Source of the DNA: a virus
Strand: one strand, 5' to 3'
Virus record (IMG/VR): IMGVR_UViG_3300025128_000026
Span: 1 to 64,000 of that record
DNA: 64,000 nt
The position numbers and the translations under genes are program-made. How positions within the stretch are numbered: position 1 is the first letter of the stretch; each line of letters opens with the position of its first letter. The notes under the pieces were generated by a model, which saw nothing but the letters and a program-made list of their open reading frames with translations, was not told where the DNA came from and did not search any database. This document shows positions 56,507-58,754 of this stretch, one piece after another.

Positions 56507-57061
56507 TTATTGTTTAAAGTTTGGAAGTGCTTGGAGGTCTTGGTTCCAACGTAATCCAATCTTTTTAGATACATTGTCGAGAGCAATTGCCAATGTATCA
56601 GGCGTTCCACTTTCCATAACAACGTCAAGTGCTTTTGTTTTAAGGTCTTTAAGTTGTTTTAGTTTTTGCCCTTCAGGTCGTCTTTCAATCTCTCTTTCTG
56701 CAAGTGTAGACGCCCACTCTCTCAATTGATCTTCACAATCTGCAAGGGACAATTTATCATCATTATATCTATAACTATCTCTCTTAAAGTTATAGTTTAA
56801 CTCTTGGTCTTTTGGTTTTTTCTTCTCAAAAAATGTCAGCGCTGTTGCTCTCGCGTCTTCTAACATTTTTTCTGCTTGTCTAAATTTATTGATAATCTTA
56901 TCTGCACCAATTTTTTTAGATAGCTTATCAACCGCTTTGTCTGTCGCTTCTGTTTTAAATTGTTTAACCAATAACTCTTGCTCTTCAATCATTGGGTTAA
57001 ACTGTCTTTTCACTTTATCTCTAAAGTGATCTAACTGATACTTGGTCATTGTCTTACTCAT
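56507..57061 (-). CDS. Hypothetical helical protein (184 aa)
   Basis: Long charged helices (TKYQLDHFRDKVKRQFNPMI, EEQELLVKQFKTEATDKAVD, GQKLKQLKDLKTKALDVVME) indicate a coiled-coil or four-helix protein. It ends next to the palindromic promoter. Overlaps the upstream 80-aa gene by 4 bp. Function unknown. Confidence 0.68.
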   Translation of the reverse strand: MSKTMTKYQLDHFRDKVKRQFNPMIEEQELLVKQFKTEATDKAVDKLSKKIGADKIINKFRQAEKMLEDARATALTFFEKKKPKDQELNYNFKRDSYRYNDDKLSLADCEDQLREWASTLAEREIERRPEGQKLKQLKDLKTKALDVVMESGTPDTLAIALDNVSKKIGLRWNQDLQALPNFKQ

Positions 57062-57300
57062 TGTTGCACCTCATCAGTTAATACTAAAGGTTCGTGAGTA
57101 TTATCACTCATTAACAAATCAACTAATTGTAAATGATACTTTGTCGTATCGCTGTCATTTAGTTGCTCGTAAGCAATCAACATTTTAGTTGCCTCCGATA
57201 ATGAGTACGCTTTGTCTTTCATTATGTAATACTTTGAATGTTGATTAGGGTATGAATAAACCCTCTCTTCAATTACAAAGTATTTTTTGTCATTTGTCAT
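57058..57300 (-). CDS. Hypothetical small protein (80 aa)
   Basis: I chose the start MTNDKKYFVIEERVYSYPNQ at 57300 because the promoter at 57329-57356 and the AGAAAGAGGATAAT ribosome site lie immediately upstream; an in-frame start further upstream would pass through the promoter. SLSEATKMLIAYEQLND forms a helix. Function unknown. Confidence 0.66.
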   Translation of the reverse strand: MTNDKKYFVIEERVYSYPNQHSKYYIMKDKAYSLSEATKMLIAYEQLNDSDTTKYHLQLVDLLMSDNTHEPLVLTDEVQQ

Positions 57301-57328
57301 ATTATCCTCTTTCTGTTGTTTATACCCT

Positions 57329-57356
57329 CTTATAACATACTGAAATATGGTGTCAA
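57329..57356 (-). promoter_or_regulatory. Sigma-70-like promoter
   Basis: Minus strand: TTGACA (57351-57356), 16 nt, TATAAG (57329-57334), followed 28 bases later by the ATG at 57300. It has no palindrome like its neighbours, so it may be constitutive. Confidence 0.6.
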
Positions 57357-57558
57357 GTATAATAATGGATAATAATTTATTTATTTTAGGTGCGACACTT
57401 TTGACCATTTACTATTATAGGATAATCCATTATGTTGGATTTAAGATTGAATTAAATCTTACCTACGCCCTTTTACTAGCTTACGGCGTTATAAACTCAA
57501 ACTAGTAGTGCTCGATTGTGGGTTGTACTGCACTTAAAATTGGGAAACCCTCAGGACA

Positions 57559-57614
57559 GACCCAGGATCACACCGCAACTTGTTGCCGTCTTTCCTGGGT
57601 GCTGATCCCTGGTC
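57559..57614 (+). repeat. Chain unit 0 (57559-57570 with 57603-57614)
   Basis: GACCCAGGATCA pairs imperfectly with TGATCCCTGGTC, extended by CACC (57571-57574) with GGTG (57598-57601). Alternatively ACCCAGGA (57560-57567) pairs perfectly with TCCTGGGT (57593-57600). Confidence 0.55.
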
Positions 57615-57689
57615 TATTGTACGTTTTGCAAAGCGTTTGCGCTGGACGGTGCTAGCTGAGTTCAGACATTAAACGATAGACCTGGGATC
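57604..57689 (+). repeat. Chain unit a (14-bp inverted repeat)
   Basis: GATCCCTGGTCTAT (57604-57617) and ATAGACCTGGGATC (57676-57689) pair at 13 of 14 positions. Inside lies GCAAA-GCG-TTTGC, a small hairpin. Confidence 0.7.
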
Positions 57690-57776
57690 AGTTGTGTTGG
57701 AAATGGCGTTGGCTGAGCCAGCCATCGTTTGAGCTGTAAAGCGAGATGCTTGCCATAAGACAACTGATCCCTGGTC
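57679..57776 (+). repeat. Chain unit b (inverted repeat)
   Basis: GGGATCAGTTGT (57684-57695) pairs perfectly with ACAACTGATCCC (57760-57771); after one T-T mismatch GACC and GGTC add four more pairs. Inside, TGGCTG-AGC-CAGCCA is a perfect hairpin. Confidence 0.7.
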
Positions 57777-57879
57777 ACATTAGAGATTTGACTAATCTTA
57801 AATGATGTCCAAAACGGAGAAGAGACTGGGTTGTTTGCCTCTCGTAACTTTTTTGGTTTTAGTGTGACCTGGGATCAGT
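57763..57879 (+). repeat. Chain unit c (19-bp inverted repeat)
   Basis: The stretch 57763-57781 pairs with 57861-57879 over 19 positions, with one G-U pair (valid only for plus-strand RNA) and one T-T mismatch. Inside, ATTAG and CTAAT make a small hairpin. Confidence 0.7.
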
Positions 57880-57984
57880 CAACGCGCCGCCGCTAGAACA
57901 CAGAGACTCTGGCGTTGGCTGGTCGTAGTCCCGTCATTTTTCTTAAAAAAAAATAATCAACAAGCAACAAGCAACAAGCGGCCC

Positions 57985-58002
57985 GGGAGGGTGGGCCCGC
58001 GA
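57985..58002. repeat. 18-bp GC-rich repeat, copy 2
   Basis: Identical to 55704-55721. Just before it lies CAACAAGCAACAAGCAACAAGC, a polar repeat related to the array at 58984-59121; GGCCC and GGGCC arms allow a small hairpin. Confidence 0.75.
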
Positions 58003-58099
58003 ATCTTCAAGCATATGACCCCGGCCGCCCGCCCCTAGTATATCCTATAAAATCCCTTAAGTCAAATGACAATATTGTCGCAGCTTGTAAATAAATATA

Positions 58100-58127
58100 T
58101 TGACTTTTAATTATCCATCATTATATT
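58100..58127 (+). promoter_or_regulatory. Promoter of GP88 operon
   Basis: TTGACT (58100-58105), 16 nt, TATATT (58122-58127), 21 bases before the ATG at 58149, with a GAAAGCGAGGA ribosome-binding site. Confidence 0.65.
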
Positions 58128-58148: not shown

Positions 58149-58754
58149 ATGAAAGTAAAAGAAGCAAAACAAATTACCGGGTCACTGACTCGAACGTCTA
58201 AGATGCCGGGCCTGAGTTACAGCTTGCCAGCCTGGGAATGCAAAACCGGGAGCAAGTTAAGAAAAATTAAAGGCAGCGTCTGCGCCAGCTGTTACGCTCT
58301 GAAGGGTAACTATACAAGATACAAAGCAATTAAGGCTGCACAGTACCAGCGACTAGAAGCACTGAAGCGTCCGGGCTGGGTTGCTGCAATGGTTACACAA
58401 ATTAAAAGACAGAAATTTTTTAGATGGCACGATGCCGGAGATATTCAAGATCTTGATCATTTAAATAAAATTTTTGAAGTATGCAGGTTGACACCTGGCA
58501 CGCGTCACTGGATGCCAACACGAGAAGCAAAAATTCTCAACCAAATTCAACCTGAGGTTGTACCAAAAAATTTAATCATTCGTATGTCCTCGCATATGAT
58601 AGACCAGGGCCCAGTTAAATTTTGGCCTTGGACTTCGACGGTGACTAGTAAGGGCGGCGCGAGCTGCCCAGCACCGAAGCAGGGCAACAGCTGCCAAGAT
58701 TGCCGGGCTTGCTGGAATAGAGAGGTAGGAAATATAAGTTATGGAAAACACTAA
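58149..58754 (+). CDS. GP88-family protein (201 aa)
   Basis: MPGLSYSLPAWECKTGSKLR, GSVCASCYALKGNYTRY, FRWHDAGDIQDLDHLNKIFE, LTPGTRHWMPTRE and four C-terminal cysteines (CPAPKQGNSCQDCRACWNRE) match the GP88 phage family. The cysteine layout suggests metal or Fe-S binding. It is expressed from its own plus-strand promoter with two small downstream genes. Biochemical function is not known to me. Confidence 0.87.
   Translation: MKVKEAKQITGSLTRTSKMPGLSYSLPAWECKTGSKLRKIKGSVCASCYALKGNYTRYKAIKAAQYQRLEALKRPGWVAAMVTQIKRQKFFRWHDAGDIQDLDHLNKIFEVCRLTPGTRHWMPTREAKILNQIQPEVVPKNLIIRMSSHMIDQGPVKFWPWTSTVTSKGGASCPAPKQGNSCQDCRACWNREVGNISYGKH

Follow-up and report, generated by a model that had tools for sequence, protein, structure and literature searches.

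The window analysed here, a 64,000-nt stretch of viral DNA (positions 1 to 64,000 of the 65-kb IMG/VR record IMGVR_UViG_3300025128_000026), carries an array of alternating inverted 13-nt arms between a small divergent gene and a gene of the GP88 family. The features of this region are as follows:

57058..57408, minus strand: small divergent gene upstream of the array (open reading frame)
57401..57426, plus strand: candidate promoter of the RNA, TTGACC ... TATTATAGGATAAT (read from the sequence)
57430..57559, plus strand: 5' leader of the predicted RNA, with a local hairpin GATTTAAGATTGAATTAAATC (predicted fold)
57560..57600, plus strand: 5' domain hairpin with the conserved internal loop UCACACC/GUCUU (covariation; 21 loci match)
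57602..57691, plus strand: O1 hairpin cassette with arms A1 (57602-57614) and B1 (57679-57691) (homologues)
57651..57656, plus strand: palindromic site GCUAGC of O1, a candidate symmetric kissing loop (palindromes in homologues)
57692..57763, plus strand: E1 spacer cassette with the private basal stem TTGT/ACAA (homologues)
57764..57878, plus strand: O2 hairpin cassette with arms A2 (57764-57776) and B2 (57866-57878) (near-identical copies)
57873..57924, plus strand: 3' E-type module with the closer CUGGUC (57919-57924) and a 13-pair helix with two G-U pairs (homologues)
57957..57979, plus strand: CAAGC heptad repeats in the interval from the array to the next promoter (read from the sequence)
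58100-58127, plus strand: candidate promoter of GP88 (promoter match at chance level)
58149..58754, plus strand: GP88-family protein gene (PF17338, E 3e-30)

Arm A is the exact 13-mer CTGATCCCTGGTC, found at 57602 and 57764, and arm B the exact 13-mer GACCTGGGATCAG, found at 57679 and 57866; no further copies of their 10-nt cores were detected across the 64-kb window. The initial annotation had described a chain of five alternating GATCCCTGG-type elements in a gene-free, GC-rich segment. The absence of genes on both strands and the higher GC content (0.50 in the array vs. 0.36 in the window) are correct, and the chain is real, but it consists of four shared-arm elements. Three of the private extensions listed there (TCTAT/ATAGA, GTTGT/ACAAC and TCACATT/AGTGTGA) are present in the sequence, as is the helix joining 57873-57885 with 57912-57924, with its 13 pairs, two of them G-U. 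In contrast, the fifth element proposed near 57565 had to be given up together with the pairing CACC/GGTG, as these bases belong to the separate hairpin at 57560-57600. Its 22 homologues change all 12 hairpin pairs on both sides and often lack GGATC, so that the likeness to an array element is a coincidence of the window sequence.

The leader at 57430..57559 is partially conserved in two other loci (L231 and L197). A consensus promoter scan made no call at 57401..57426; across the collected loci, a TTGAC-N15-19-(-10-like) pattern lies upstream of 133 of 226 arrays, compared to 24 of 217 random stretches. On the 3' side, hexamers containing CAAGC are among the commonest in the flanks of the arrays. 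The heptads (AAGCNNC) occur in the 3' flanks of most loci, in many pelagiphage loci immediately 5' of the next TTGACA promoter, and a regulator of the phage may bind to them. Between the array and GP88, positions 57980-58030 of the window form a strongly GC-rich stretch GGCCCGGGAGGGTGGGCCCGCG, and similar stretches (GGGTGGGCCC) are present in several other loci.

The terminase of the window phage shares 74% identity with its counterpart in Pelagibacter phage HTVC027P and 72% with the one in phage 023Pt_psg01, and this likeness makes it very probable that the phage is a pelagiphage with a SAR11 host. In both of these phages, located via their terminase, an array of the same elements lies near the terminase and a GP88-family gene, whereas a blastn search of cultured phages with the window array gave no match because the modules differ. 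The HTVC027P array spans about 17.66-18.22 kb of record MN698241, with its sense strand on the minus strand of the record. Three pattern scans of IMG/VR returned 43, at least 120 and at least 119 loci, together more than 240 viral loci with a common plan. A 5' domain comes first, O hairpins (with CTGATCCCTGGTC...GACCTGGGATCAG arms) then alternate with E modules, and a hexamer closes the array at its 3' end. In most of these loci, the elements form an A-B-A-B chain on a single strand. A pattern of this kind gave only 11 isolated matches, in unrelated taxa and in about the number expected by chance, among 84,980 bacterial and archaeal species (one genome each). In three loci (L017:4414-4480, L103 and L127), a second array or a single hairpin, oppositely oriented, lies at a distance of some hundred bases or more.

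The gene neighbourhood is partly conserved: GP88 lies downstream of 180 arrays, some arrays precede other genes, and a divergent minus-strand gene of one protein cluster lies upstream of 120 arrays of relatives. Among 55 loci picked by GP88 with the motif ignored, an O hairpin was found upstream in 31, compared to 0/55 in shuffled and 0/45 in downstream controls; the same test found no O hairpin in the other 24. Phage HTVC033P has the GP88 gene, and no array was found in it, while neither was found in the parts of HTVC023P that were read. Taken together, these cases mean that the RNA does not occur in all such phages. The window GP88 is 65% identical to its homologue gp33 of HTVC027P, has invariant cysteines and an FRWHD motif, and gives a confident AlphaFold model (pLDDT 91.5). 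A role as RNA-binding partner was considered and dropped: despite the good model, comparison with the PDB by sequence and by fold gave no significant match and hence no functional hint.

None of 100 dinucleotide shuffles folds as stably as the plus strand of the array (z -5.3). Since the minus strand folds about equally well (z -5.0), folding energy alone does not identify the strand. The pairing pattern does: at arm-extension positions flanked by Watson-Crick pairs, G·U combinations outnumber A·C by 188 to 5, and in 321 of 351 O stems a U faces another U at the arm centre. A scan for a perfectly paired arm centre recovered 20 loci, compared to at least 120 for the U·U version. Beyond the arms, private extensions of the O stems average 7.4 bp vs. 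2.7 with shuffled partners, and the E spacers (B..A) have private stems as well. Two-sided changes at arm positions 11-13 are paired with the odd partner in 98/65/51 cases and unpaired in 2/5/4, while with the even partner the counts are 8/0/0 paired and 4/3/1 unpaired (both strands are included, and the true numbers are roughly half).

Both ends of the array are structured as well. In many relatives, the 5' end forms a pseudoknot in which the 5-nt loop of an ACAAC-loop-GTTGT hairpin pairs with the 5 nt preceding A1; pairing was found in 65 of 68 cases (best of 1000 permutations, 51), with nine pair types vs. 3.3. In the window, the UCACACC/GUCUU hairpin stands in its place. The 22 homologues of this hairpin show two-sided changes at 12 of 12 pairs, with 97.3% paired vs. 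65% when shuffled and a covariation score of 1.01 against 0.34 (shuffled) and 0.12-0.14 (slid). At the 3' end, 156 of 208 flanks contain the closer CTG[AG]TC, compared to 9 after shuffling, and private pairing adjoins it. A more general 5' 'opener' pairing with A1 was discarded, as it occurs in 15 of 162 arrays vs. 4 expected. In one locus (L183:6978-7039), variant arms CTGATCTCAGATC/GATCTGAGATCAG with a Watson-Crick centre are nested inside an E module, which suggests further arm alphabets.

The initial annotation had proposed a new structured RNA of the plus strand, to be checked against Rfam and for covariation in homologues. Rfam covariance models gave nothing at gathering level for the window and 19 array loci (permissive thresholds produced scores far below the cut-offs), and ARAGORN found no tRNA or tmRNA. 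The O arms, the 5' pseudoknot and the 5' internal-loop hairpin covary strongly. Together with the G-U strand bias, these results strongly support the proposal. Comparison among the loci establishes, at the level of sequence, that the plus strand encodes a conserved structured RNA, that its architecture is modular and subject to exchange, and that it has sites at which palindromy is preserved. Searches of the open-licence literature found no description of such an RNA, and this large class is apparently unreported.

An important question raised by the shared arms is whether alternative pairing acts as a switch, as the initial annotation had suggested. Two competing folds of the window differ little in energy (-145.3 vs. 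-143.4 kcal/mol). In the last B, the GATCAG half is the partner of the 3' closer and is also a part of the O stem. Between loci L018 and L203, A, B and the closer change together and all stay complementary, so the GATCAG half-arm has two supported partners, and a switch is possible. The half-arms need not compete, as O may hold the CCTGGTC half and E the CTGATC half. At the first eight arm positions, changes on both sides preserve pairing with the odd partner in 12 of 13 cases and with all even partners in 5 of 13. On this count, a fold splitting all arms between O and E stems was rejected as the conserved fold; it is a possible, energetically close alternative. Arm covariation tracks the odd A..B hairpins, and a switch is a possibility that the data neither need nor contradict.

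A cis-acting leader, in which the shared arms would control the downstream GP88 as a riboswitch or attenuator, could draw on these near-equal folds, on the complementarity kept in L018 and L203 and on the frequent position of GP88 downstream. We nevertheless regard it as improbable, given that the covariation follows the odd hairpins, that some arrays precede other genes and that a separate candidate promoter and the CAAGC repeats lie between the array and GP88. The arrays also differ from riboswitches and leaders in having no common ligand core or other conserved core, because their modules are freely exchanged.

This exchange is evident from the distribution of the modules. Clustering of the 577 modules gave 277 groups, and a single E module is joined to many different O modules. 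Among 546 array pairs sharing a module, both flanks are unrelated in 298, and the module is at least 95% identical in 107 pairs of this kind. In 29 pairs, module identity is at least 97% with unrelated flanks, while GP88 is less than 75% identical (down to 50%), and some modules (58-94 nt including arms) are 100% identical although the GP88 proteins share only 50-66%. The modules of the window are scattered separately: O1 has homologues of 80-86% identity in five loci (L213, L080, L201, L223 and L029), E1 in five (L033, L150, L002, L042 and L039), and O2 has copies of 93-98% identity in three (L012, L183 and L108), each time beside other neighbours. The 3' module, likewise with other neighbours, recurs in about two dozen to 28 loci, close relatives included. 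The breakpoints lie at the 13-nt arms. As judged by this comparison, cassettes have been exchanged between phages at the joints, most simply, it would seem, by phage homologous recombination. This exchange and the palindromic self-matching sites described below are the main properties of the array, and both were invisible in the single sequence available to the initial annotation.

Breakpoints at the arms, and alternating inverted arms that resemble paired recombinase sites, might also be expected of an element acting on DNA alone (integron-like, REP/BIME-like or cruciform), with the arms as recombination or replication sites and no RNA function. Such an element is very improbable here, as it does not account for T opposite T on one strand in nearly all O stems, for the excess of G-U over A-C, or for the covariation of the pseudoknot and the internal-loop hairpin. 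Integron attC arrays share with the phage arrays interchangeable cassettes and short, conserved, folding joints; they differ in that the phage cassettes are gene-free RNA hairpins whose arms act as RNA stems, and no integrase was found among the eight neighbouring window genes scanned. REP/BIME elements are also short repeats of alternating orientation outside genes. However, they occur in many copies per genome, whereas the window has one array (two A and two B), with private compensating extensions and a strand-specific U-U opposition (57610/57683 in O1). CRISPR arrays are similar in having repeats split by variable inserts; in the phage arrays the repeats alternate in orientation, and the inserts are structured and common to several phages.

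The O modules are enriched in palindromic 6-mers (1.7-fold) and 8-mers (2.9-fold; z >10), while E modules and coding DNA show no clear enrichment. Homologous O modules with two differences at such a site are still palindromic in 22 cases and not in 6; with four differences the counts are 15 and 0, and with six, 1 and 0. Under false complement rules, the two-difference counts were 0 vs. 21 and 1 vs. 13. Replacement of a palindrome by another at the same position was found in 38 cases (1 under false pairing rules) and in 16 of 58 families, alongside 30 single differences, which necessarily break the palindrome. One site varies among GTGCAC, TTCGAA, TCCGGA, CCTAGG and GCTAGC, and another among GCCCGGGC, ACCGCGGT, GCCATGGC, GCTCGAGC, GCCTAGGC and GTCCGGAC. 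In the columns of the O1 site GCTAGC, homologues have ACTAGT or CTCGAG; O2 of the window has no palindromic 6-mer. Of 261 arrays, 217 have a palindromic 6-mer in one or more O modules, a count to which chance palindromes contribute.

Single departures from palindromy are G-U in 10 cases and A-C in 7, and the palindromes by themselves are thus no proof of the RNA strand. Many palindromes lie outside the hairpin loops of predicted minimum-energy folds. Since adjacent bases cannot pair within one chain, the pairing would be between two identical sites, and the replacement of palindrome by palindrome points to symmetric kissing between identical RNAs. The same argument was made for OLE and GOLLD, in which loops L9.3 and L21a, respectively, switch between palindromes (PMC12286853). 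GOLLD, ROOL and OLE are long structured RNAs that form RNA-only homo-oligomers, and two of them are phage- or prophage-borne (PMC12286853). Palindrome switching in the O hairpins is a likeness to these RNAs, and assembly of the array RNA is a prediction from it. Unlike these RNAs, each of which has one architecture per class and an Rfam model, the array RNA consists of exchangeable cassettes with common arms and matches no Rfam model in the loci searched.

The palindromes also weigh against the array being a processing precursor, with stems cut (e.g., by RNase III) and each cassette released as a small RNA that acts on its own, as a sponge or decoy, on RNA or proteins of the host. Long regular stems, hundreds of module families and modules that swap freely, as though working independently, would all suit a precursor. 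It leaves unexplained the palindrome-to-palindrome replacement in O modules, the O-E alternation and the conserved 5' and 3' ends, and we consider it unlikely.

The best reading overall, which we hold to be quite probable, is a shuffled, multivalent plus-strand RNA that self-assembles with its own copies during infection. A noncoding RNA of about 370-500 nt would be transcribed from its own promoter on the plus strand. It would begin with the 5' domain, formed by the UCACACC/GUCUU hairpin in the window and by the loop-tail pseudoknot in many relatives. O cassettes would follow, each closed by the near-invariant 13-nt arm pair with its conserved U-U opposition, with E cassettes on private basal stems between them and a final 3' E module closed by CUGRUC. 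As every joint carries the same 13 nt, recombination at the joints would swap cassettes between phages, giving each lineage its own combination at one fixed locus. Many O hairpins would then present a self-complementary site of 6-8 nt that is free in sequence and kept in palindromy, through which identical copies may bind by symmetric kissing loops into multivalent homo-oligomers. The kept palindromy makes binding to identical copies, and homo-oligomerisation through kissing loops, the most likely behaviour of this RNA. Its production as a separate RNA, its self-assembly and any benefit to infection are what we infer from the comparison.

As to purpose, our guess is an RNA assembly that protects or sequesters and is made early to midway through infection. 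More tentatively, and rather doubtfully, the palindromes might be self-recognition addresses, by which the RNA of a lineage would join copies of itself but not the RNA of a co-infecting relative, as an identity code or as a scaffold gathering genomes or transcripts; lineage-specific assembly is proposed since a palindrome pairs best with itself and the cassettes are shuffled. No structured RNA class that we know of, and none matched in Rfam, combines evolution through swapping of hairpin cassettes at a shared joint with the retention of self-matching sites. If the reading holds, the arrays would be a natural modular system of RNA self-assembly in viruses of one of Earth's most abundant organisms.

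This can be tested at present, since HTVC027P is in culture with an array, its host is HTCC1062, and RNA-seq of the infection has been published (PMC12753301). The text of that study treats annotated genes only and does not mention noncoding or intergenic RNA (PMC12753301). The same-strand genes next downstream of the HTVC027P array are gp33 and gp34, which form a temporal cluster of their own with high expression at 6-9 h (PMC12753301), and this early-to-middle expression cluster beside the array merits a second look.
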